This document shows, piece after piece, positions 11,627 through 39,957 of a stretch of 40,014 nucleotides of DNA. Numbering within the stretch: the first letter of the stretch is position 1; each line of letters starts with the position of its first letter. This DNA comes from a virus, in the IMG/VR virus record IMGVR_UViG_3300030098_004836, positions 1 through 40,014 of that record. One strand, given 5' to 3'. The position numbers and the translations under genes were made by a program. Below the pieces are notes generated by a model, which made no database searches, was not told the origin of the DNA, and saw only the letters and a list, made by a program, of their open reading frames with translations.

Positions 11627-12075
11627 AGCTTAATATACTTGGTAGTCCTTGCGAGGGCTGTAGATACCATAGTTTCCCATACGAGGCACTCTTGCCTTTA
11701 TATAAAGATGGGAAACGAATAAAAATGTCTTTTAATTCAAAAGATGATGTTTGGAGCGCTGTCGATTTATTAATCGATGACGCTCTGAACGCAAACACAA
11801 GTAAAAATAATGTGTCTTCTGCTATTATAGACCAGATACCTTTTTTTACCTGTGTTAACCATTTCTTTACAGACAGTATAAGAAAAGATATTGAAAGATA
11901 TATATATTGCGACCAATTTAAAGTTCCCCCTTATTTAGGGGATTATGGGCAACAACCATCTAAATGGGTTAAAAGAGCTTTTTTAATTAAAAATGCAATA
12001 GCTAAAAAAGAAAGTAAAGATATAGAAAAAATTAAAGCTGAGCAAAAAGCAAAAGCTAATAGCAAGAGGAGATAA
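11602..12075 (+). CDS. Tail assembly chaperone, -1 frame extension (gpT-like)
   Basis: This segment is in the -1 frame relative to the preceding ORF. It is open from upstream of 11602 to 12075 and has no ATG before 11725; the nearest possible independent start is TTG 11692. The region before that TTG still reads like protein (GSPCEGCRYHSFPYEALLPLY), which argues that translation arrives by frameshifting. The most likely slip point is the GGGGG run at 11602-11606 in codons GAG-GGG-GAA, where a Gly-tRNA on GGG can re-pair one base back. The C-terminus is Lys-rich. In long-tailed phages such G-GT fusions assist tape measure and tube assembly. Confidence 0.65.
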   Translation, partial: GGRDALQVELNILGSPCEGCRYHSFPYEALLPLYKDGKRIKMSFNSKDDVWSAVDLLIDDALNANTSKNNVSSAIIDQIPFFTCVNHFFTDSIRKDIERYIYCDQFKVPPYLGDYGQQPSKWVKRAFLIKNAIAKKESKDIEKIKAEQKAKANSKRR

Positions 12076-15000
12076 TGGCTAATAAAATTCAGATAAGATT
12101 TGAGGCGATAGGGGATAAGGCTTTAAGAAAGGCAATACAAGAACTTGCTAAAGCACAGGCTCAGCTTGAAAAAAATACTAAAAATTTAAACAAGGCAAAC
12201 AACGCCTTAAGCTCGGCTAATAATAAAGCTACTCAAGCAACCAATAATCACGCAAGGTCTCAAAAACTTATAAAACAAAGAGTTGAAAAGAATGTTCAAG
12301 CTTTTGGAAAACTTCAATCAACTTTAGCTGTTTATAGAAATAAGCTTTTACTCGCAGCCTTCGCAGCAACAGCTTTTAGGCAAACATTAGGAAGCCTTTT
12401 AGATGCTTATGCAAAACAGGAAGCGGCTGAAAGACAGCTTAGTGCAGTATTAGGAACAAGAAGCAGCAATTTATTAAAATTTGCCGCCGCTCAACAGCAG
12501 GTAACAATGTTTGGAGATGAAGTAACTATTCAAGCAATGTCTCAAACTGCCGCATTTATTAAAGATGAAGAACAAATTAAAGAGGTAATGAAAGCCTCTC
12601 AAGATTTAGCGACTTTATTTGGCTGGGATTTAAATACAGCGGCTCAATTAGTTACTAAAACTATCGCAAGTTCTACAAACGCACTTCAAAGATATGGTAT
12701 AGAAGTAGAGGGCGCAGTTGGTAGTGCAGCAAGATTTGAAAGCGTATTAAGCGCTGTAAACAATGTTGCAGGAGGCTTATCAGAAGAGATGGCTGGCACT
12801 TACACCTATGAAGTAGCTCAATTAGGAAATGCTTGGGGAGATTTAAAAGAAGAATTAGGAAAAGAACTTGCGCCTGTAATTACAAAATTAATAAGACTTA
12901 TTAAAGTTTTTGTTGAAGCGTTAGACCCTGAGAATATAAAAAGATTTATGATATCGTTAACTGCATCGGTGGTTGCTATGAAATCTTTTGCATTTGCTAC
13001 GGCAGGCGCATACACTAAAGGCAAAATGTTTGTTAGAGGAATGAGACTTATGAGCGTTGCTGCAAAAACATTTTCTAAAGCATTGAAAGCTGTTGCGTGG
13101 TTTACGGCTATAGATTTCTTAATACAGATGGCTTCTGCTACAAATAGAGTTAAGGGCGGATTTAATGATGCAACTACAGGAATACACGATTTTGATGCTG
13201 CTATAGAGCAACTTAGCTTAACAACTGGCGGCACAGAACAAACTATAGAGCATTTGCAACAAAAACTTGATAACTTAGAGTTTAAAAAAGAATGGGCTAA
13301 AGGCTGGGAAGAGTCTATGGCACAGGCGAAGAAAAATTGGGAAAGTACAGCGGGTATGCCAGCTTGGATGTCTAAAAGCTTAAATGCTGTAGGCGAATTT
13401 GTAGAAGACGCCATTCTTGACTGGTCTACACACGCTATAGCAGGGTTAGATAGAGTAGACTTAACTGATATTTTTGTTTTTGATAATGACGACAATATAA
13501 TTGATTTTACAGAGAGATTTCACGATATAGTGGTAGAAAAGTTTGGCAAAACTTACGATGAATTAAATGAAATGCAAAAAGCCTCACTTTTCAGAGGAAG
13601 TTTACAGCGACCTGATGCAGTAGGTTATATGGATTGGTCAGACATTAAGCCTGGCACTTTAGACTTTAAATGGGATGAAGGGCTTGTTTTTCAAGAAATA
13701 TTGGATGAAATTGAAAGAACAGAAGATATGTTGCGTGAGCTGGGAGCTATGCCAGATGCGGTAATAGAAGTGCCTGTTAAAGTCAAGCCAATAGTGACTA
13801 TGGATGATGATGATAAATTAGATGATACATTTAGAAAACTACTTCAAGAAGTAAGCGATTGGTATAAAATGAGAACAAAAATCCCTGAAGATAAATTAGG
13901 CGCAGATGTGTTTGAAAAAGCGTTCCCAGAATTACCTATTGAGGAGATAGGAGACGGGTGGGGAGTAGACATTGATAAATTGGTAGAAGTATTTGGAAGA
14001 AAGGCAGCTTTAGCGGATTGGATGGGAATTATTGATATTATTACAAGTGAAGTTGCAAAGCTTCCAGCCGCAATGGATGTCAATTTTGTCGAAGATATTA
14101 TTGTAAAAGCAATCGAAGTAGAATCTTATAAATTAGCAAATAAATTAGATAAAATTCCCGAACAGTTTAATACAATGTTTGACGGGCTAAACTTGTCAGA
14201 GTCTGAAAAGCTTAAAAAACAATTTGATATATATGAAAAACAGATAGAGAGCTATTTAATAGATATGATAAAAGTAGCCGATGCTGGGGCGTTTTCAGCG
14301 CATATAAATCCTGAACAATTCTTTAAAGATTGGACAAAAGATGCTGACCTAACAGGTGTTGACCAGATTGTAAAAAAATCAACGGAGACTTGGGTACAGT
14401 TTTTTGACAGAATGGGCAATTTGCACGATGGTGGGGCAGATATGGTCGCTGACTTTTTTGATACTTATGCCACTACGCTGCAAGACAAGGGGATTGCAAA
14501 TGTAGATGATTGGAAAAAATCTATTGATGAGTGGTTTAGCACGTCTGACCAAAAATTAAAAGATAACTCTAAGAGTGTAGATAATTTAATAAAAAATTAC
14601 CAAAAGAAAACAACTGCCATAGGTGAATTAAACCCAGCCATTGCAGAGTATAATACAGTTATAGAAAGCGCTACTAATATTACAGATAAAAATAAGAAAG
14701 AATTAAAAAAAGCTATTATTGCATATTATGAAGAAAAAAGAGTTATCGATAAAGTAAAAAGCTCAAGACAAGAATTATTAAGTATGATTCATTCGACAGA
14801 GATGGCTGAGCAAAGCCGTATAGCTACTTTACAGAACCAATTAGCCTTACTCGAATCAGTAACTGCCGCAGAATTAGACCAAAACACAAACGTTGCTGAT
14901 TTAGTTAAAAAATATAACGATTTAAATGGAGCTATAGACTTATATGCGTATACCTTGGGAAGTAGTTTTGTTGAGTCTAATGAATTAGCTTTGCAAGAAT

Positions 15001-15716
15001 TGGAAATAGTCAAATTAGAACTTGAAGCATTAAAAAAGCATTTTGAAGGCAATGCTGAAATGGTTGATTATTTAGATAGAGCTTTGCAAGGAGTAGAAAA
15101 ATCGGCATCAAGACTTAGCGCAGAGTTTATAAATTTAAGCGAGTGGGGCGACACGTTAACTACAGCGCTAAGTGGTATTGCTTCAGCGGCTGATGCAGCA
15201 GCTTGGTCTGGAGAGCATATGGGAAGAGCTATGGAACAGGCAATTCAAAGAATGGTTAGTATTATAGCTGCTAAGCTTGTGGTCTTTGCAACGTTTTTTG
15301 CTATATTATCAGGAATAGGTTTGGTTCAAACTGGCTCGCTTGCGGGTGGTCAAACTTTATTATATAATTTAACGGGGGGAGGTTTCTGGGAATCTTTTGC
15401 TAATTTTGCATTTCACAAAGGCGGAAAAGTAAAAGGCTATAGCGTAGGAGGGCAAGTAATGCCTTTATACCATTCTGGCGGAGGGGTTGACGATGTTCCT
15501 GCTATGCTTCAAGAAGGCGAATTTGTTATGCAAAGGAGCGCTGTTGACTCTATAGGTCTTGAAAATTTAAACAGAATGAATAGAACAGGGCAGTCTCAAA
15601 GTGGTGTTAATATTTCTTTTTCTGGAAACGTTTTAAGTCGTGATTTTATTGAAGAAGAAGCTATTCCTAAAATTAAAGATGCAATCCGAAGGGGTGCAGA
15701 TATAGGGATTGGGTAA
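12075..15716 (+). CDS. Tape measure protein, 1213 aa
   Basis: The longest helical protein in the genome and located right after the chaperones. Residues 15-85 are coiled coil (AIQELAKAQAQLEKN ...), with hydrophobic segments at about 88-108, 290-330 and 1060-1090 that fit the membrane-active parts of tape measures. The C-terminus (from about 1115) carries the familiar GGxV...SGGGVDDVPAMLQEGEFVM motif followed by S-A-V. It would set the length of a non-contractile tail and take part in DNA delivery; using the usual 0.15 nm per residue, about 180 nm (inference). The start overlaps the preceding stop (TAATG). Confidence 0.9.
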   Translation: MANKIQIRFEAIGDKALRKAIQELAKAQAQLEKNTKNLNKANNALSSANNKATQATNNHARSQKLIKQRVEKNVQAFGKLQSTLAVYRNKLLLAAFAATAFRQTLGSLLDAYAKQEAAERQLSAVLGTRSSNLLKFAAAQQQVTMFGDEVTIQAMSQTAAFIKDEEQIKEVMKASQDLATLFGWDLNTAAQLVTKTIASSTNALQRYGIEVEGAVGSAARFESVLSAVNNVAGGLSEEMAGTYTYEVAQLGNAWGDLKEELGKELAPVITKLIRLIKVFVEALDPENIKRFMISLTASVVAMKSFAFATAGAYTKGKMFVRGMRLMSVAAKTFSKALKAVAWFTAIDFLIQMASATNRVKGGFNDATTGIHDFDAAIEQLSLTTGGTEQTIEHLQQKLDNLEFKKEWAKGWEESMAQAKKNWESTAGMPAWMSKSLNAVGEFVEDAILDWSTHAIAGLDRVDLTDIFVFDNDDNIIDFTERFHDIVVEKFGKTYDELNEMQKASLFRGSLQRPDAVGYMDWSDIKPGTLDFKWDEGLVFQEILDEIERTEDMLRELGAMPDAVIEVPVKVKPIVTMDDDDKLDDTFRKLLQEVSDWYKMRTKIPEDKLGADVFEKAFPELPIEEIGDGWGVDIDKLVEVFGRKAALADWMGIIDIITSEVAKLPAAMDVNFVEDIIVKAIEVESYKLANKLDKIPEQFNTMFDGLNLSESEKLKKQFDIYEKQIESYLIDMIKVADAGAFSAHINPEQFFKDWTKDADLTGVDQIVKKSTETWVQFFDRMGNLHDGGADMVADFFDTYATTLQDKGIANVDDWKKSIDEWFSTSDQKLKDNSKSVDNLIKNYQKKTTAIGELNPAIAEYNTVIESATNITDKNKKELKKAIIAYYEEKRVIDKVKSSRQELLSMIHSTEMAEQSRIATLQNQLALLESVTAAELDQNTNVADLVKKYNDLNGAIDLYAYTLGSSFVESNELALQELEIVKLELEALKKHFEGNAEMVDYLDRALQGVEKSASRLSAEFINLSEWGDTLTTALSGIASAADAAAWSGEHMGRAMEQAIQRMVSIIAAKLVVFATFFAILSGIGLVQTGSLAGGQTLLYNLTGGGFWESFANFAFHKGGKVKGYSVGGQVMPLYHSGGGVDDVPAMLQEGEFVMQRSAVDSIGLENLNRMNRTGQSQSGVNISFSGNVLSRDFIEEEAIPKIKDAIRRGADIGIG

Positions 15717-18700
15717 TGATAGAAAGTTCAGCTCAGTTTATACGTACGTTATCTAAGACATCTAATTATATATATTATATTGTTCACCTAAATTCAAGCC
15801 AAAACGATAAATCAAAACATATATTTATATCTAATAAAAAAACTTCTAATTTTATAGACCCTGAATGTTCTGGCTTTTTAGATTTAGATTTAAAAGTTTC
15901 CCCTATAAAAGAAAGCATAAATCTGCAAGAAAAAAGCTTTAATACTAATAAAATATCTTTTTCTGTCTCCAACTCAGATAGTAAGGGAAAAAGCTTTACC
16001 GACCTTTTGTATAACACTAATTTTCAGGGAGCTGAATTAAAAATTTATATAGCGTCTGATGGAAGCGAAAGTGTAGATGATTGTGTTAATATATTCACAG
16101 GATATATTACGCAAGTTCAATCAGACTCTAAAAGGTGTGAAATATCCGCTGAAGACTATTCTTCATATACATTTAAAGAAAAAACTATACCAAAAAGAAA
16201 AAACCAGCAATCTACGCAAGAGCTTATAGACGGAAACGAAAACATACCGATTCCTATGGTTTATGGTCAAGTTGAAAACTCTAAAATGTTAATGACAAGA
16301 CCGCACATAAACAACTTAAAATCATATATATATCCCGACGCAGTTGACCAAGGAATAAATATTCTCGGATTTTCTACTGATTATAAAGCTTTGCAAATCT
16401 TTAGAGATAAGCTTTATTTAGATATTCCTCAAATATTTCAAGAAGTTGGTGCGGAGGACGACCCTTTAATTATTAACGGAATTAACTATAATTTGCTTTA
16501 TGTAGGCACACCTCAATATGAGATTGAGCAAGACCATATTCTTATAGAAAAAAAGATGTCTGGAAATTCTTTTACAGAGGGGATGCCATTAAATATACAG
16601 GCAAGAGAGCAGTTTCAGGTAGATGTTGAAAGAACCCCTTCAGGAATACAGCCCACATCTTCAGACTCAGTTCTTACATACGGGTATAATAATGAACAAG
16701 AAATAACATTTAACGGACACCAAAACGGATATAATATAAGCGATGGAGCAACATCGTGGAATTTTCCTCTTCCAACCGAAGGAATTCCTATAAGCTATCG
16801 TGAAAACATAGTTGTGGGACATATAACAAGAAAATTAGATAATGGAACGAGCGGAGAAGATTCTGGCTCTATTTGGTGGGTAAACGAGTATCTTAATCAC
16901 TCTAAACTTATGAATCAATATGACCCTAATGGATTTGGGGTAATAGAGATAGTTAGGCATCCTTCCGCAGATGAAGTAGCTGAAGTCTTAAACTTGCCAG
17001 ATGGCTATTACGGTCACGGCGAGATGAAAGTAAAAATATACGTTTGGAGACAAACGAGCGGTACTGGAGCATATATAGGACGTGTTTATCCGTATTGGTG
17101 GTGGACACAGTTGCCTGACCTTGAAGATTTGCAAGGCGCTGATAGTTTGTACGATTTTTGGAACGGGATAGCGGGAGAATGGATAAGAGATTATTTTAAG
17201 GGAGAGCTAAAGTATGCGTGGTCTACTGATGTTGTTGTTCGACACCCCTCTATTCAAGCTCTTAACTTAGGGACTTTGGGTAATTGGCTTAATATAGAAC
17301 AAGACTTTCAGCAATTTGAGATGGTTTATGGATATTCTTTTACAGATGGTCAAGATATTATAAAAATTAGGTTAGACGAAGACCTAACAGAGCAATTTGG
17401 CTCTGGGGCGGCATACCTTCCAAATTCAATATTAGGCGGTAAGGGTAGCTGGATAACAACTAATTCGTGTGGAGATGGGCTTCAATCAACTCCAAACCCC
17501 AGCACCTCAAATCAACGTCAATTTGCGTCAGAGATACCAGATTTAATAGGAGAGTGGGGAGCGCACGGTTCTCAAGGATACTATTATTGTTACGCAAATG
17601 GTTATCGTGTACCAACATTAAGAAAGTTTCTATATGGAAGAAGAATAACGGAAGACGAACATACGGAGACTGGGGGCGCTATTCCTTTAGGCACTTGGGT
17701 ATATGGAATTTTTCCAATAATCGGAGCTTTTAATCCTAAACACTTTAATCAAAGTGATGAGGATTCTTCTGGAGGAATGTATGTTTATGATATGGTTGGA
17801 GATGGTTGCTTGGCTTACGGAAACCCTTATTTTTACGGAGCAAGAAACCTTGAAACAGGCGAATACTACGAAAGTGGCAGTTATAATTTTGGTACTATGA
17901 GAATAGATGAGCTTAATGTTATTGAGTTTGAGGCAACTCCTAATGTTGCTATAAACGCTGACCATCAATGGGCAATAGGAATCCATAATAACTTTGGATA
18001 CGGATTTGGAAAATTAATTACAGATTGGTGGTGTCATACTCCTGGTTGGAATCAGTATGAGAGCGACCAACACCCTAACGGAGCAGCCCACAACATTAGA
18101 CCTGTTATAAAAAGTATTGGAAATTTAGCGCAAACAGGCGGAAGTTATTGCCCTATTCAATATACTGACGGCTTGGCTACAGCAGTTAAGATGGATATTA
18201 CATTTAATTCTGTGACTGGCTCAGATATAATACAAGGCTCAGTATACTCTATGTTTAAATGCAAAATAGATACCGAGTTTTCTTTGTTAGAGGTTGGAGA
18301 TTCCTCTGATGACCCAGCTAAAAACGTAGATTTTTTAGTTGAAGCCGATTGTTTTAAAATTAGAAGCGGACAGGGAAAAGGACATAATGACATTATAAGA
18401 AAAGAAAAGGTTAATACGCTTCCATTAACAAATATCCAAATTCAAACTGTTACCGACCATAACGGAAATACTTGGGACGAAGCGGTTGCAACAAACCCAT
18501 ATCATTGGAATACTGGAAGAGAACCAGAAGGCGAGGAATTAGGAAGCGTTTGGGACGAATATTTAACCGACACTAATTTAAATCTATCTTCTTGGATTGA
18601 TGATGAAGGAGTTCCTCAAACTGACCCAACTACAGTTATGAACGAATGTGATTCACACGAAGTTACCCCTGAAGATATACAAGCAGGTCGTGTAAATGCT

Positions 18701-20038
18701 TGGAGAGAAAATTTAAGTGCGGTAGACGGAGTTTCTTTAACTTTTAGGCTTGGATATAATTATGATATACATCACTTTCAAGACCCTGAGACTCAAAATT
18801 TTGACCTAAACTCGCAACTAAATGAAGACGCTCCTTTCCCTGACAATATAGTAAGGGGAAAATTTAAAGCTTGGCTAAGCAACATATCTTTAAAGCAAAG
18901 ATATATTGTTGGAAATATAAGTCAGCTTGATTACTATGGAAATGTTTTAGGAAGAATTGATGATTCAGATGGTTACTATACAGGGTCTGACTTTCAGGAC
19001 GCAGAGCCTAATATTGAATGGCTTTTAAGAAAGCCTTCTGATATTTTTATACATATATTAGATAAAGAGCTTGATAATACAAGACAGTATAACCAATCTT
19101 CTATAGACTCTTGTCGTTTGTCCGATTGGAAGTTTGATTTTTGTCAAGCAGAAGAGATTGATGGTAAAAATTTTATTGACGATTTTTCTAAAAGCACTTT
19201 TTTCATTCCAAAGTTTTCAAGCGATAATTATTTTTCTTATATAAATCTATTAACACGAAGCACATCTAAGGTTATTGATAAAAAAGATGTTATAAACTTT
19301 GAATATTCAAGAACTCCTAAAGATGACTTAATTTTAAAGTGTAGGGTTCGCTATAATTGGGATGAAGGCTTACAGACATATTTAAACGAAACAAATCCAT
19401 TCGGACACGGAATAATGCCTGCTCAATATCAGCTATATGAAGAATCTTACAACATTAGAAATTCAAATGATTTTTATCTTGATTTTGAATCAAAATATAT
19501 AAGAGATGATGAAACGGCTTTAAAGCTTAGAAACTTTATTTTAAATTGGAATAAAAATATTCATACTGTAATAGAATGTGAGCTTCCTGCAAACTATATG
19601 GTTTTAGAGTGTGGAGACTTTGTTAAATTTAATGATTTATTAGGGGGCTTAAAAGCTTTTGGAATAGATTACACAGACCCGTACGGTTATTTTGTTAACG
19701 AACAACACTATGATGGAAGCTTTATAGTAACCGAAACAAAAAAATCTTTAAAAACCGTAAAAATTACTTGCGTTGCAGCGCCGTCCTTAGTAAACCAACT
19801 ATTAGTAGAATCGGAGTCAGGAAGTTTTGTAAATTTTGAACTAATGGAGGGAACGGGAGACGTTAATTTAGATGGCTCCACAAATATTATGGATGTCATA
19901 ATTCTTGTTAACTATATAATTGGGACTCCTCAAAACCAGCTTAGCCCGCAAGAAGCACTTATTGCAGATGTGGATGAAGATGGCTTTGTTGATATTTTAG
20001 ATTTAGTAGCAATAATTCAAGATATTGTAAATGGTTAA
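15716..20038 (+). CDS. Tail tip / distal tail protein with C-terminal dockerin domain, 1440 aa
   Basis: The N-terminal 150 residues (QEKSFNTNKISFSVSNSDSK, CVNIFTGYITQV) resemble distal-tail or hub proteins that attach to the tube end. The very long middle part is Trp/Tyr/Gly-rich with many beta segments and shows no catalytic motif I can name. Residues 1381-1440 are a two-repeat dockerin type I: loops D1382-x-N1384-x-D1386-G and D1418-x-D1420-x-D1422-G, each followed by the hydrophobic dockerin helix (IMDVIILVNYI, ILDLVAIIQDI). Dockerins bind Ca2+ and a cohesin partner. It starts inside the tape measure stop and is followed after 14 bases by a gene with a possible cohesin-like segment. Confidence 0.8.
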   Translation: MIESSAQFIRTLSKTSNYIYYIVHLNSSQNDKSKHIFISNKKTSNFIDPECSGFLDLDLKVSPIKESINLQEKSFNTNKISFSVSNSDSKGKSFTDLLYNTNFQGAELKIYIASDGSESVDDCVNIFTGYITQVQSDSKRCEISAEDYSSYTFKEKTIPKRKNQQSTQELIDGNENIPIPMVYGQVENSKMLMTRPHINNLKSYIYPDAVDQGINILGFSTDYKALQIFRDKLYLDIPQIFQEVGAEDDPLIINGINYNLLYVGTPQYEIEQDHILIEKKMSGNSFTEGMPLNIQAREQFQVDVERTPSGIQPTSSDSVLTYGYNNEQEITFNGHQNGYNISDGATSWNFPLPTEGIPISYRENIVVGHITRKLDNGTSGEDSGSIWWVNEYLNHSKLMNQYDPNGFGVIEIVRHPSADEVAEVLNLPDGYYGHGEMKVKIYVWRQTSGTGAYIGRVYPYWWWTQLPDLEDLQGADSLYDFWNGIAGEWIRDYFKGELKYAWSTDVVVRHPSIQALNLGTLGNWLNIEQDFQQFEMVYGYSFTDGQDIIKIRLDEDLTEQFGSGAAYLPNSILGGKGSWITTNSCGDGLQSTPNPSTSNQRQFASEIPDLIGEWGAHGSQGYYYCYANGYRVPTLRKFLYGRRITEDEHTETGGAIPLGTWVYGIFPIIGAFNPKHFNQSDEDSSGGMYVYDMVGDGCLAYGNPYFYGARNLETGEYYESGSYNFGTMRIDELNVIEFEATPNVAINADHQWAIGIHNNFGYGFGKLITDWWCHTPGWNQYESDQHPNGAAHNIRPVIKSIGNLAQTGGSYCPIQYTDGLATAVKMDITFNSVTGSDIIQGSVYSMFKCKIDTEFSLLEVGDSSDDPAKNVDFLVEADCFKIRSGQGKGHNDIIRKEKVNTLPLTNIQIQTVTDHNGNTWDEAVATNPYHWNTGREPEGEELGSVWDEYLTDTNLNLSSWIDDEGVPQTDPTTVMNECDSHEVTPEDIQAGRVNAWRENLSAVDGVSLTFRLGYNYDIHHFQDPETQNFDLNSQLNEDAPFPDNIVRGKFKAWLSNISLKQRYIVGNISQLDYYGNVLGRIDDSDGYYTGSDFQDAEPNIEWLLRKPSDIFIHILDKELDNTRQYNQSSIDSCRLSDWKFDFCQAEEIDGKNFIDDFSKSTFFIPKFSSDNYFSYINLLTRSTSKVIDKKDVINFEYSRTPKDDLILKCRVRYNWDEGLQTYLNETNPFGHGIMPAQYQLYEESYNIRNSNDFYLDFESKYIRDDETALKLRNFILNWNKNIHTVIECELPANYMVLECGDFVKFNDLLGGLKAFGIDYTDPYGYFVNEQHYDGSFIVTETKKSLKTVKITCVAAPSLVNQLLVESESGSFVNFELMEGTGDVNLDGSTNIMDVIILVNYIIGTPQNQLSPQEALIADVDEDGFVDILDLVAIIQDIVNG
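19856..20035 (+). other. Dockerin domain coding segment
   Basis: This segment encodes residues 1381-1440 of the tail protein. It has two F-hand calcium loops with Asp/Asn at positions 1, 3, 5, 9 and 12 (first loop D-V-N-L-D-G-S-T-N-I-M-D). A linker of about 25 residues separates the repeats, as in cellulosomal dockerins. It is the last part of the protein, as in most secreted dockerin proteins. Confidence 0.85.
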
Positions 20039-20052
20039 ATATAGGGAAATTT

Positions 20053-20712
20053 ATGATTAGAAAATCAATACATTCATTAAAAAGAAAATTTAAACACAGC
20101 CTAACATCTGCATCTTTACAATATAAAGATGGAGTGGTAACCTTAACAACAGACGCTCCTTTCCAAGCTGTTGAAATTCATTTTAGAGGAAACTTTCAAG
20201 GATTTTCTATGGCAGGTTCTGATTACTATATTGGCGTAGGAAGAGAAAAAATTGTTATAATCTCTTTTATAAAACATAATATTTTTGACAATAGAACGTT
20301 AAGTTTGTTTAAATTTTATGGAAATTTTTTTCCAACCTCTTGCAGGGTAGTTCAACATAAATATTCATCAGTTTATGCCGATATAGTTAGAGAAAACAAC
20401 ACGTTTAATAAGGATGCTAAATGGGAAGGAATACACTTAAATTGGGAAAATTTTACAGACCCAAGCATTAACTATATTGACAATAATAATGAAGAAATTA
20501 GAACTTTTAAAAAAGGGTCTTCAAATTATATGGAAAATGATATAGATACAAATTTATTTGAAGTTTATGATGAAAGTGGGCAAAGGTATTACGGAAATGC
20601 GAAGTCAGCAATAGTTAATAATAAAGTAAGATTTTATAAAAATGACGGCGGCAATATTGTAAATAGAAAAAATATTTTAAAAGGAAAAAATAAATGGCAA
20701 ACAGAGAGGTAG
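20053..20712 (+). CDS. Tail protein with possible cohesin-like domain, 219 aa
   Basis: The protein has 219 residues. Residues 18-115 read as a beta sandwich: SLQYKDGVVTLTTDAPFQAV, EIHFRGNFQGFSM, REKIVIISFIKHN, CRVVQHKYSSVYADIV. The sequence of short strand, 'DAP.qavei.f.G', and a later 'ADIV' strand recalls cohesin-like modules that follow dockerin repeats in Marinimicrobia-type proteins (resemblance by eye). The C-terminal 100 residues are polar, with an Asn/Tyr-rich linker. The gene is 14 bases after the dockerin-bearing gene, so the two products may bind each other. Its end overlaps the next gene by 19 bases. Confidence 0.5.
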   Translation: MIRKSIHSLKRKFKHSLTSASLQYKDGVVTLTTDAPFQAVEIHFRGNFQGFSMAGSDYYIGVGREKIVIISFIKHNIFDNRTLSLFKFYGNFFPTSCRVVQHKYSSVYADIVRENNTFNKDAKWEGIHLNWENFTDPSINYIDNNNEEIRTFKKGSSNYMENDIDTNLFEVYDESGQRYYGNAKSAIVNNKVRFYKNDGGNIVNRKNILKGKNKWQTER

Positions 20713-21914
20713 GACTACCAAGATTTTATATAGACTTTTCAGCATTAGCAAGAGTTTTGGGGTTATGGGTAACTCAAAAGGAAGAATGGGAAGGCGGCTC
20801 ATATGAATTTGATAGAAATAGTCACGTTATAGACAGAATGAATAGTTCGCAGTATGATTTGGGTAGCGAAAACCTTTCGAACGCTTATGAGGTTTGGCTT
20901 GGAGACTATAGCACTCCAAAAACTTTTTTATTTTCAGCTTCTGCTGGAGAAATTAAACCCCATCTTCATATGTCTTTTTGGAACGTGTATGGTGTCAATT
21001 ATAATCTTGATTGGGCTAAATTAATGACAACAACCAACTGGTATGGTGTGCTAAATCATAGTTTTCACAACGCAGTTACCTCTGACTCAGATGTTAATAA
21101 TGTTGTTGTCTCTGGATTTTTTAGCAACTCAAATAACAGTATAAGTCAGCACGGAGTTCCTACAGGAAGAAATGAAGATACAGTTTGTGACACGCAGCAG
21201 ATGGAAGAATATAACGGGTTTAGCATAACAACATTTGACAACCCTATGTGTATGCCTATCAATGAGAGCAATTATCTATCACATAACGATATTAATAAAT
21301 ATGGAAGATTTTGCGTTAGGTTTACTCCTGATTTAGATGGCGTATTCCCAAACGATAGATATGAGATTAGTATAGGGGCGCTAATGTTTGGAAAATATTT
21401 TGATATGCCTCATTCTCCAGACTTACAGGTTAAAAAAAGTATTTCTTTTGATGGGGTTGATTCATCAAGGGGAGTTAGCGGTTCAGACTTTGTCCATATT
21501 AATAACACGGGATTACCAGCTTGGCAACACGGAGATGCTTGGAAAAATGTGTCGTACGATAATAAAGGAAGGGCTTTAAACTTAGGAACAGGCGGAAGAA
21601 GGTCTTGGAATATGAAATTTTCTTACGTAAGCCAAAGCAATATGTTTATAAACCACCATCAAGATAAATCTTTTGGATACCTGTCTAATGAATCAAGCTC
21701 TATGGAATTTACTGAGGGGTCAGACGGCGTTATAGAATCTATATTTCAACTAACTTTAGGCGGAGCTGTTCCTTTTGTGTTTTGCCCAGATTCAAATGCC
21801 TCTGCTTCTGAAAAAGAATTTGCTGTATGTAGGTTTGCTAAAGACTCTCTATCTATAACTCAAACAGCTAATAATGTATGGGATGTTCAAATGATATTGG
21901 AAGAAGTCTGGTAA
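20694..21914 (+). CDS. Minor tail protein, 406 aa
   Basis: The last gene of the rightward structural operon. It encodes 406 residues, rich in aromatic residues, Ser and Asn, with short strands and no enzymatic motif; the C-terminus (AVCRFAKDSLSITQTANNVW, then a hydrophobic-acidic end) fits a beta-sandwich domain seen in tail or baseplate proteins. It starts at ATG 20694 with AAAGG-type ribosome site inside the previous gene. It ends 38 bases before a convergent gene and 20 bases before palindrome copy A. Confidence 0.65.
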   Translation: MANREVGLPRFYIDFSALARVLGLWVTQKEEWEGGSYEFDRNSHVIDRMNSSQYDLGSENLSNAYEVWLGDYSTPKTFLFSASAGEIKPHLHMSFWNVYGVNYNLDWAKLMTTTNWYGVLNHSFHNAVTSDSDVNNVVVSGFFSNSNNSISQHGVPTGRNEDTVCDTQQMEEYNGFSITTFDNPMCMPINESNYLSHNDINKYGRFCVRFTPDLDGVFPNDRYEISIGALMFGKYFDMPHSPDLQVKKSISFDGVDSSRGVSGSDFVHINNTGLPAWQHGDAWKNVSYDNKGRALNLGTGGRRSWNMKFSYVSQSNMFINHHQDKSFGYLSNESSSMEFTEGSDGVIESIFQLTLGGAVPFVFCPDSNASASEKEFAVCRFAKDSLSITQTANNVWDVQMILEEVW

Positions 21915-30090: not shown

Positions 30091-30873
30091 CTAAACGTTC
30101 ATTCCGTTGAAAGCGTCGTCACATTCTACGCAAACACGATAAGACCCGTTTCCGCTCAAGTCTCTTAAGTCATTCGTTGAGACGTTACAATAATCACATT
30201 TTTCAAGCTTAGCAAAATCGTCTGTAATACCGCTAAATTTAGACTTTTTAAGCTTTAATGACTTACCCTTAGGCTTTAACGTTATCGGCTTGTAATTGTA
30301 GCCGTAAGACCACCCACAAGCGACCGCACCGCCCGAAGACTTGTAACTGTTATTCGAATACCAAACGTTTCCGTTCCAATGTCCTAAATTCTCGTTAATA
30401 ATTGTGAAATCATTTTGAGAATTTAAGAAGACAAGTTTAGAATGTCCGATAAAATCGCCAATTAGCTTTCTTGTTGCTTTGTAGCTTAAGAAATCGGTCG
30501 GCAAATCTTGTAAGATATCTCTATTAAAAACTTGAGTATCTGACAGTTTTTTATCGTCTTTAACGTTGTGAATCATACCGTTATGAGCAAAAACCAAGTC
30601 TTCCGACACCTTAAACGGATGCACGTTAAAAGTGCCTTCATTCGTGCCGTGTGTACTCAGTCTAAAATGCACAATAAAATTTGACTCTTGATTGTGCAAA
30701 ACGTCGCCCTCGTACTGTTTAAAAAACTTAGAAAACTTTCTAAATTTTTTAGTTGTGATTTTGCCGTCTCTGACAAAGCTATATCCGACCCCGTCACGAT
30801 TGCCGTTAAAAGCCGTTTGCAATGATTCCTTTTCGATATGTCCGTCTTTCTTTTTAAGTATTAGTAAACACAT
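30091..30873 (-). CDS. Class II glutamine amidotransferase with C-terminal zinc ribbon
   Basis: A 260-residue Ntn-type glutaminase. C2 directly after Met is the nucleophile; further family motifs are NRDGVGYSF (N25, D27), VHFRLSTHG (R71), NVHPF (H85) and FAHNG (N98-G99). It would release ammonia from glutamine and hand it to a partner enzyme, here most likely the neighbouring amidoligase. The C-terminus carries C226-x2-C229 and C248-x2-C251, a zinc ribbon. The ribosome site is AAGGGG. Codon use is richer in CpG and in GAC/ACG codons than other genes. It ends at a strong terminator and is preceded by a hammerhead ribozyme. Confidence 0.85.
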   Translation of the reverse strand: MCLLILKKKDGHIEKESLQTAFNGNRDGVGYSFVRDGKITTKKFRKFSKFFKQYEGDVLHNQESNFIVHFRLSTHGTNEGTFNVHPFKVSEDLVFAHNGMIHNVKDDKKLSDTQVFNRDILQDLPTDFLSYKATRKLIGDFIGHSKLVFLNSQNDFTIINENLGHWNGNVWYSNNSYKSSGGAVACGWSYGYNYKPITLKPKGKSLKLKKSKFSGITDDFAKLEKCDYCNVSTNDLRDLSGNGSYRVCVECDDAFNGMNV

Positions 30874-31135: not shown

Positions 31136-32686
31136 CTAAATCCTCACACGTTGAGCGGGGAAGTTCAAAAAGCTTTCTCCCCAATTTTGAGCCTTTACCC
31201 AAGAAACCAAGTTCTCAAATTTGCCCGACTCCTCGACGTGTTTCCAATATTTTTTAAAGTCTAAAAAGTTCGTCAAGTCTGAGACCTTCGCCCACTCTCT
31301 CATCGACTCGGCAAACTCAATATTTTTTCTGAACGTTTGTTCATTCATTGAAGACCTAAATATTCGTAGTTCTAACGTCTGACGATTTGAAAAGTTAGTT
31401 GCCAAATATCTGTCGTCCCCGACCGCTAACGTCTTAAGGCTTGCGAAATCTGTCGTCCCGTTGTTTCTGTCATATCTAAACTGATACGTCAAAGTCTCGG
31501 AAACCATTCCCGCAATATTATCCGAGAATTTAGCCCATTGACGTAATTTATCCGCCGAACGTTGAGACACTTTAAAAGCAAACCCTTTCCAATGATTTAA
31601 GAATTTGGCGATTTTGTACTGATTCAGACCCGACATTGTCGAACGGTTTAAGTGGACGTGAATCCCGCAAGATTTCGACACGTTCCACCCTAAAATCTGA
31701 CCTCTCAATTTGAACAGTTCTTCGAAGCCGTAAGACGTGAAAAACTCGTAACTCATCGGGTGAGATACAATCTCGACACCCGTTCGACCGTTGCCGTTAA
31801 TTGAGCCGTCGTTTACACAAAACAAGAATCCGCCTTCTAATGTGTTATTAATTTTTGAGACGACTTTTTGTTGGTCAAATCTCGTCAAGCCTTCTTTGAA
31901 TTGTACCTCTAATTCAAAGCCAAGTAAATCTTTATCGGCTCTTAAATTCTCTCTAACGATAGACCCGTTTAAAACGTCCCAACAAAATAATTCGGGTTTA
32001 TGCCCATATCCACGAATACCCGTTGGTATATCGTAATCACAATCCCGACAAATCCCGCCGTCTGTCTCAGTTTGAAGAAGGTCGTCACGATGAAAACGGT
32101 CTCCGCACGATATACAATCCGAGAATAAACTCTCATAATTTGAAAGTTCATATATTCGACCGTTTGCCGACGTCGAATTAAAATTCTCAACGTTGTAATA
32201 TCGCCCGTCAGATGCACATCTAAAAAATTGGCTCATATATTTACGGTCAATTTTATGAGCCGTGACCGTTCTTACACCGTCCCCGCCTTCTATTCTATTT
32301 AAAACAAACGTCCCCCTCTGATAAATAAAAGTCTCCTCAGAAGACACACCGCAAACGACGGGTAAGGCTCTCAAGTAATCTGTATCGCCGACCTCAAAAA
32401 ATCCGCCTATAAATCTATCAATTAAAAACGTGTTAAATTGGTTTTCAATCGAAGACGTTAGACTTGAAACCTCTCTTGATACGTCTATTAATTGCTCAAA
32501 ATCTATATAGGCTAAGCCGTGAGGCAATCCAATTTCGTGAATCCCGTCGTCGTTAGTGATTCGCAAACCGTGTATCTTACTATATGTCCGCCCTTCGATT
32601 GTTGCGATACCGTAACGTCTTGTCCCGTCTACGTTTCCGTTAATGATGCTTAATTTAGTTCCTTTAATATATATTTGGTTTCCCAT
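31136..32686 (-). CDS. Amidoligase (COOH-NH2 ligase, glutamine-synthetase-like fold) with zinc ribbon
   Basis: ATG 32686 is chosen for its AAGGAG 5 bases upstream; an in-frame start at 32746 would put the start at the likely transcription start. The 516-residue protein has an N-terminal domain (1-185), a zinc ribbon (C191-x2-C194, C213-x2-C216) and then the amidoligase core: LGFELEVQF (256-263), NDGSI (292-296), GVEIVSHP (303-310), SCGIHVHLNRS (339-349) and LELRIFRSS (438-446), the motifs expected for the ATP/Mg2+ site. Such enzymes join amines to carboxylates in peptides or proteins, often with a glutaminase partner. The target is unknown. Confidence 0.85.
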   Translation of the reverse strand: MGNQIYIKGTKLSIINGNVDGTRRYGIATIEGRTYSKIHGLRITNDDGIHEIGLPHGLAYIDFEQLIDVSREVSSLTSSIENQFNTFLIDRFIGGFFEVGDTDYLRALPVVCGVSSEETFIYQRGTFVLNRIEGGDGVRTVTAHKIDRKYMSQFFRCASDGRYYNVENFNSTSANGRIYELSNYESLFSDCISCGDRFHRDDLLQTETDGGICRDCDYDIPTGIRGYGHKPELFCWDVLNGSIVRENLRADKDLLGFELEVQFKEGLTRFDQQKVVSKINNTLEGGFLFCVNDGSINGNGRTGVEIVSHPMSYEFFTSYGFEELFKLRGQILGWNVSKSCGIHVHLNRSTMSGLNQYKIAKFLNHWKGFAFKVSQRSADKLRQWAKFSDNIAGMVSETLTYQFRYDRNNGTTDFASLKTLAVGDDRYLATNFSNRQTLELRIFRSSMNEQTFRKNIEFAESMREWAKVSDLTNFLDFKKYWKHVEESGKFENLVSWVKAQNWGESFLNFPAQRVRI

Positions 32687-32752
32687 TTTTACTCCTTTCT
32701 CTCGTCGAGAATTTGTTATTGTTTCGTTAATCTTGCCGTCAATCATACCTAT

Positions 32753-38799: not shown

Positions 38800-39957
38800 A
38801 TGTTTAACTTAACTTTTGAAGGTCAAAATCCTTGGATTCAATCTGGTGTTGATTTTAATGTCACATCAAGAATTCAGATGAATTTGTCCGCAACAAACAA
38901 TGTTGCACTTGCTGGTGGTTTACAGGACTCTGATGCTGCTACTGCTTCGCTTCAGGAATTTATTCCCGAAATATGGGGTGCATCAATACAAGACTATATG
39001 GTAAAAAATCTTGTATTCGGAGCGCTTTGTAACGACCAATCAGCTTTAGTTGCAGGCGGTGGAGACAGAATCCATCTACCAAGACATAGTGAATTAACTG
39101 CATCTGACACCTACGGTGGCGGAACAGTTGCTGTAGAAACTTTGATTGGAACAAATTTAGCCTTTAGTGCAACTGGCGATGCTGAAGATGCTTACACTTT
39201 AGACATCAATCAAGGTATTCATAGTGCAATTTCAATCACAGATGTTGCGAAAGTACAATCAAGCTATGATGTAATGAATCTTTATACATCTAAACTTGGT
39301 TATGCCTTAGGTAAAAAAATCGACCAGTATATAGCTACATTATTGTTTCAGGCTGTTTCTTTCAATTATGCGGGCGCAACAGCCGATGGAAATAGTGCAG
39401 GAAACACAATCGAACTAAATGATGCTCACGATGAACAACATATAGAGGCAGTTGGTGTTTCTAATATGCTACAAGCTATATATGAAAATGATAGTAATAT
39501 TGAGGACTATGTAATGATTCTTGTTCCTAAAGTATATGCAAGTCTATTTAAGTTAGCTGACTTTGCAAGATACGATGGAATTGGAAACTCGTTAGGCAGT
39601 CAAGTTCCTTTTATAAGCGGCTTTGCGGGCAAGCTTGGTGGGGTTGAAGTTATTGTATCTAATAACTTTATGCACTACTCTTCAGGCTCAACTTTAGCTC
39701 AAACATCAACCCCTAAAGGAAACTTTAGTTCAAATAGTGTTGATGATGAAAGTGAATTCCTATTGGGTTACTTAGTTCATAAAGATGCTATGCATATTGC
39801 ATACTCTTCTGGATTGAAAGCAAGAGTTCAAAGTGACTACCACCTACCTTCATTATCTACAAGATTTGTTGCAGATAGCGTTTATGGTGCTTTAGTTACT
39901 GGAAATACTACAGCAGGAAACAAAAAAGTTTTCGCATTAGTTAGTCCAGCTTCATAG
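38800..39957 (+). CDS. Major capsid protein, complete copy
   Basis: A 385-residue protein with an AGGAG ribosome site. It begins MFNLTFEGQNPWIQSGVDFN and includes QEFIPEIWGASIQDYMVKNL, a pattern of HK97-fold capsid proteins of marine phages ('f.pe.w..e....l.....f'), and later SSYDVMNLYTSKLGYALGKK and the C-terminal FALVSPAS. It follows the scaffold gene. Identity is supported by context and by being the most conserved part of the window between its two copies. The partial copy at 1-992 is homologous but different. Confidence 0.9.
   Translation: MFNLTFEGQNPWIQSGVDFNVTSRIQMNLSATNNVALAGGLQDSDAATASLQEFIPEIWGASIQDYMVKNLVFGALCNDQSALVAGGGDRIHLPRHSELTASDTYGGGTVAVETLIGTNLAFSATGDAEDAYTLDINQGIHSAISITDVAKVQSSYDVMNLYTSKLGYALGKKIDQYIATLLFQAVSFNYAGATADGNSAGNTIELNDAHDEQHIEAVGVSNMLQAIYENDSNIEDYVMILVPKVYASLFKLADFARYDGIGNSLGSQVPFISGFAGKLGGVEVIVSNNFMHYSSGSTLAQTSTPKGNFSSNSVDDESEFLLGYLVHKDAMHIAYSSGLKARVQSDYHLPSLSTRFVADSVYGALVTGNTTAGNKKVFALVSPAS

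Follow-up and report, generated by a model that had tools for sequence, protein, structure and literature searches.

The locus studied here raises the question of whether a phage tail protein ending in a dockerin and the product of the gene next to it could form a pair of the kind known from cellulosomes. The window, that is, the whole stretch of DNA analyzed, has 40,014 bases and covers all of the record IMGVR_UViG_3300030098_004836, which we regard as a tailed phage because it has matches to capsid and terminase proteins and, more weakly, to a tape-measure protein. The tail genes of interest lie on the plus strand. A tape-measure-like protein of 1213 aa (12075..15716), recognized by its position, its length and a weak PHROG tape-measure match (E 0.16), is encoded 5' of a gene for a protein of 1440 aa (15716..20038), which follows directly and carries the dockerin (19856..20026) at its C-terminus. 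From its place after the tape-measure-like gene and from weak PF13550 (Phage-tail_3) matches located 5' of the dockerin in three relatives (E 3.4e-4, 0.044 and 0.08, all below the curated cut-off), we infer that this is the tail-tip (hub) protein. The hub is one long ORF in the window and in other relatives, but two large ORFs in a row (about 380-640 and 790-970 aa) encode it in L128, L129, L133, L134, L138, L142, L144 and L145. The next gene, an ORF conserved in relatives (20053..20712), encodes the cohesin-like protein of 219 aa, in which a beta-sandwich predicted by AlphaFold2 (residues 17-115; 20101..20397) is followed by a variable C-terminal part (residues 116-219; 20398..20709) with low AlphaFold2 confidence. 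It is overlapped by a conserved tail gene (20694..21914), whose product of 406 aa begins with MAxxxxGxPRFYxD... in an alignment of 18 sequences. This downstream gene served as our synteny marker and matches phrog_8610 (E 0.001), a family of unknown function in PHROGs.

Other features of the record were observed as well. Two very similar major-capsid-like ORFs of 320 and 385 aa are located at its opposite ends (30-992 and 38800-39957) and are probably tandem paralogues parted by the contig ends. At 31136-32746 and 30091-30873, an Amidoligase_2 match (PF12224, E 9.8e-6) lies beside an ORF that starts with MCLLILKK and, by this motif, resembles a class II glutamine amidotransferase.

The original prediction, made from the sequence of the window, had placed a dockerin in the tail gene adjacent to that of the small protein, and this proved correct. 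In a profile search, PF00404 matched hub residues 1381-1436 (E 5e-9, 36.7 bits against a cut-off of 22.9), the same domain was recovered by a genome search with PF00404 (E 6e-12), and comparison with PDB sequences returned dockerins at E 2.5e-5 and weaker. Both 12-residue calcium-binding loops, DVNLDGSTNIMD and DVDEDGFVDILD, are present with their Asp/Asn ligands. The upstream gene thus ends in a genuine type I dockerin. Of 23 family members, 21 had two canonical loops; canonical ligands are absent from loop 1 of L150 and from loop 2 of L151, and half dockerins with a single recognizable calcium loop before the stop codon occur in L166 (3903-4202) and L168 (4259-4558). The fold comparison was made on a relative, L172, in which dockerin and sandwich are fused, rather than on the window protein; the dockerin part of its model superimposed on the Clostridium thermocellum dockerin 2ccl_B with 62 residues matched at an rmsd of 0.9 A (Z 12.3). 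Dockerins like that of the window are rare in annotated phages, since a tblastn search with it touched 6 of 50,697 records at E<=10.

The small protein had been predicted to start with a strand-rich sandwich at about residues 18-115, with the motifs DAPFQAVEIHF and VYADIV. These motifs are in place (residues 34-44 and 107-112, respectively), and an AlphaFold2 model built with 28 homologous rows has a confident all-beta sandwich at residues 17-115. Mean pLDDT was 91-96 for ten-residue blocks in 21-70 and 81-110 and 72 for 71-80; confidence was low past about residue 115, with block means of 39-74 after residue 120. Within residues 20-113 eight strands are predicted, versus the nine-stranded jelly-roll of cohesins, and the confident domain of about 98 residues is short of the cohesin module of about 140 residues. 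Several longer relatives (for example, L126, 4288-4890) have a YYGDVHFHSxGxFMTG-like motif in their C-terminal part, which is degenerate in the window.

Comparison of the model with known structures, which the original prediction had proposed as a check against cohesin folds, gave cohesin 1g1k as the best PDB match in Foldseek (E 7e-3), ahead of a pilus domain, CBM2, chitobiase and further cohesins; no PDB match to the sandwich was below E 1e-3. After realignment with VIA-align, in which a Z below 8 may reflect merely a common arrangement, cohesins accounted for 20 of the best 50 realigned PDB entries. The top cohesin, 2vo8 (Z 9.1, 3.8 A, 99 residues), was tied with GH20 N-domains (Z 9.0, 2.8 A, 101 residues) and chitin-binding domains (Z 8.7, 2.9 A, 87 residues), and CBM2-like entries were close (6qfs, Z 8.1; 2cwr, Z 8.7). 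The second part of the fused L172 model gave a similar picture (cohesin 2jh2_C, Z 8.5, 3.0 A, 96 residues; GH20 N-domains, Z 8.6). These comparisons of predicted structures support placing the sandwich in the cohesin/CBM2-like fold group and leave membership in the cohesin family itself unsupported; judged on the models, the fold alone does not tell cohesins from CBM2-like domains.

Sequence kinship with cohesins was not confirmed. The cohesin profile PF00963 had no match in any of 36 related records at E<=10, a Pfam search of 18 family members returned no cohesin (0 of 18), and PDB profile searches with the cohesin-like family found none either. An hhalign comparison with three similar CipA cohesins, a small and weak reference alignment, gave a probability of 0.2%. 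ORF 20053-20712 itself matched nothing in Pfam, PHROGs, PDB cohesins or annotated phages, and direct searches with the window proteins yielded no relatives of it. Several candidate matches were rejected: large T antigen as a PDB sequence relative of the window protein (E 0.3) as well as 2wus and an integrin (PDB profile searches A1 and A7) were at chance level, and weak Pfam or PHROG matches of single family members were unsupported by other members. In BFVD, nine viral proteins were found at E<1e-3 (eight of 140-268 aa and one of 1389 aa), which are probably members of the cohesin-like family.

Relatives were therefore collected through other genes of the phage. A terminase search yielded 217 relatives, of which 80 were retained as loci; 38 of them, for the most part longer records, were searched for the hub and for ORF 20053-20712. 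Hub relatives occurred in 20 of the 38 records. Relatives of the small protein were detected by tblastn in 13 of the 38, mostly over query residues about 8-125 (in G012 the match extends to residue 208); the sandwich stretch is more than chance, as this is the part conserved in relatives. Of the 20 terminase-and-hub records, 19 contained the syntenic gene according to a family profile built from 18 small proteins; the contig of the remaining one, G028 (locus L139), stops 66 bases past the dockerin. In all loci searched this profile matched the syntenic gene alone, and no second protein of the sandwich family was found. The order of hub, small protein and conserved downstream gene was found wherever the contig reaches in these 20 hub regions, the small protein being fused to the hub in G014. 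PF00404 was present in 19 of the 20 records, the exception being G038, and of the 19 records whose sequence extends beyond the hub, 18 had both the dockerin and the cohesin-like gene.

A wider pool was obtained by joining loci fetched via the downstream gene and via the small protein to the terminase loci. It is conditioned on the genes used for fetching, and the 20 terminase-and-hub records form the less biased sample. Merging of identical domains reduced 134 ORF matches to 56 distinct cohesin-like domains, and for 51 of these a dockerin was found in the gene directly upstream. The remaining five comprised two fused to a dockerin in one ORF, two without a detected dockerin and one (L154) without upstream sequence. 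The ORFs of hub and small protein overlap in 35 of the 51 adjacent pairs. Adjacency among relatives is inherited and not independent. Across the 36 related records covered by the PF00404 and PF00963 searches, which are not all of the records with loci, PF00404 was present in 33, in 32 of them above the cut-off; the dockerin of G053 (L189) is below the Pfam threshold, yet it scored 24 bits with the family's own dockerin profile. Neither Pfam nor the family profile detected a dockerin at G038 (locus L143) or G049 (locus L184).

Some loci differ in the arrangement of the hub. By eye, the hub end of G038 may contain a degenerate dockerin-like stretch. In L184 (3925-5829), the hub without a detected dockerin is next to a cohesin-like gene with a long N-terminal extension, and its end (NLISG...YGFINGEY...YWIRAS) resembles another extracellular module. 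The dockerin of L222 (3331-5967) is internal to the hub (residues 124-186 of 879), and the cohesin-like gene is still next. The hub C-termini of L130, L131 and L140 have two successive dockerin-like stretches, the first of which is less canonical.

The position of the two fusions was examined in a tree of the downstream gene with 55 rows (L211, which has no marker ORF, is absent). The sister group of fused L218 consisted of seven unfused rows (fork 98/93), and fused L221 was sister to unfused L220 (100/99) within another group of 19 rows (100/99). Two separate fusions are the simplest reading of this tree. In both fused proteins (L172/L218 and L221) the linker between dockerin and sandwich is short and contains no Met. 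The two cases without a detected dockerin (G038 and G049) are also apart in the tree. A pair conserved in very diverged phages and fused twice is what would be expected of two domains that work together.

The dockerin surface provides further hints. In cellulosomal dockerins, positions 11, 12, 18, 19, 22 and 23 of each repeat contact the cohesin, according to the accessible text of PMC4728124. Among 53 phage dockerins, position 11 was V/I in all 53 first and 49 second repeats, position 12 was L in 37 and 38, position 18 was V/I in 45 and 47, and position 19 was N/Q in 41 and 32, respectively. These four positions are alike in both repeats, and each repeat thus presents the same mostly hydrophobic surface, as is the case in dual-mode dockerins. 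A chain corresponding to the natural L172 dockerin-sandwich stretch, modeled with 22 dockerin and 5 sandwich rows, had a pTM of 0.60, between the values expected for fixed and for free domains, and the relative placement of the domains was not fixed. In a mutual-information test of 52 pairs (effective number 42) with a control gene, the top coupling z was 5.4 for dockerin and sandwich versus 4.9 for dockerin and control gene, which does not separate the pair from the control; position 12 of both repeats couples to one sandwich column (z 4.3 and 4.2) and with similar strength to the control gene (4.8 and 3.8).

On the basis of these results, we consider it moderately probable that a cohesin-dockerin-like and probably calcium-dependent joint links the hub and the sandwich of its neighbor. 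The type I dockerin at the hub's C-terminus would plug onto the sandwich of the next gene's product and thereby anchor the small protein and its variable C-terminal part on the hub; perhaps the small protein also brings the product of the following gene to the tail tip. Dockerins fold around two calcium ions, from which we infer that the joint would depend on Ca2+. It might serve to assemble or switch the tail tip. Speculatively, it might close or stiffen only after lysis, because there is very little free Ca2+ in the cytosol versus about 10 mM in seawater. The dockerin with its calcium loops, the predicted sandwich, the conserved adjacency and two fusions in separate clades support this joint; counting against it are the two lineages in which no dockerin was detected, the half dockerins of L166 and L168, the odd loops of L150 and L151 and the lack of cohesin sequence kinship. 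The observation behind the original prediction is confirmed, and its interpretation as a calcium-dependent joint, in which binding is deduced, is partly supported. A bolder version, in which a siphophage lineage has its own linked cohesin-dockerin system, the first viral pair, with a hub dockerin and a minimal socket lacking sequence homology to known cohesins, both under calcium control, open in the cytosol and closed in Ca-rich water after lysis, appears doubtful at present.

The chief rival, which we consider unlikely, makes the sandwich a module of the CBM2/chitobiase-N kind that binds carbohydrates or a receptor at the tail tip, with the dockerin attaching to a different virion protein or to a host-surface cohesin. 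CBM2/chitin-binding and GH20 N-domains rank beside cohesins, cohesin sequence signal is absent, and G038 and G049 keep the sandwich although no dockerin was detected there, all of which would fit; however, this leaves the near-constant dockerin neighbor and the two fusions unexplained, and no second protein of the sandwich family was found in the loci searched. It is rather unlikely, in our view, that the two domains are independent tail-tip decorations without mutual binding, the dockerin serving the hub as a Ca-stabilized C-terminal cap and the sandwich being a structural domain of the baseplate, adjacent by gene order alone. Tail genes tend to keep their order in any case, coevolution with the sandwich was not clearly above that with the control gene, and a dockerin can sit inside the hub, as in L222; but the symmetrical conservation of positions 11, 12, 18 and 19 in both repeats is unexpected of a mere cap, and two fusions in separate clades also argue against it. 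It is quite unlikely that dockerin and sandwich bind between neighboring hub subunits, encircling the tail tip as a ring or clasp, and recruit no further protein. The fused L172/L218 and L221, in which a short linker joins plug and socket within a single chain, would suit such a ring formed in trans, whereas the socket of most relatives forms a protein of its own, complete with a variable C-terminal part.

The favored reading, a joint between the hub dockerin and the neighboring sandwich, suggests that a family of uncultured tailed phages may join tail parts by a putative cellulosome-type plug and socket. Cohesin-dockerin binding, known from cellular enzymes and scaffolds, ranks with the strongest protein joints known in nature. 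If true, its use between virion parts would be a new way to assemble or Ca-switch a tail tip, and protein engineering would gain a minimal socket of about 98 aa along with over 50 natural plug-socket pairs. What looked like an annotation oddity thus becomes an easily tested binding question. As for the host, one terminase relative among genome contigs was on a contig of MAG TMED88, for which a binning error is possible, and therefore no host is assigned. Annotated phages, searched with the hub and the marker of a relative, gave two dockerin-only matches and nothing more.

Among the titles and abstracts listed, no phage cohesin-dockerin pair was found; the accessible parts of PMC5967307, PMC3558961 and PMC9377139 mention dockerin and not cohesin. 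Calcium acts on tail-tip proteins of a siphophage in lactococcal phage p2, where, according to the accessible text of PMC3499812, the baseplate is Ca-activated by rotation of the receptor-binding heads, but that text names no dockerin or cohesin for it. The type of plug is known, and what is new is a socket family unrecognized so far and its place in a phage tail. CBM2/chitin-binding domains and GH20 chitobiase N-domains (6qfs, 2cwr, 5dhd and 6ezr) have a similar sandwich with tied Z; unlike the phage domain, they are parts of glycan-degrading enzymes, and to our knowledge they have no dockerin partner. Non-cellulosomal cohesins of Clostridium perfringens glycoside hydrolases (2vo8, 2jh2 and 2w1n) and of Archaeoglobus fulgidus (2xdh) were among the best structural matches (Z 8.0-9.1), but these have about 130-140 aa and belong to cellular proteins with no phage context. 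The type I pairs of clostridial cellulosomes (1ohz and 2ccl) resemble the phage pair in the dockerin fold (within 0.9 A for the fused relative), the duplicated calcium loops, the conserved symmetrical recognition positions and a partner with a cohesin-like sandwich. They differ in having Ser-Thr at positions 11-12, where the phage dockerins have V/I-L, whereas the phage pair lies in tail genes, has a socket of about 98 aa without sequence homology to cohesins, and provides one socket per plug, encoded by the next gene.
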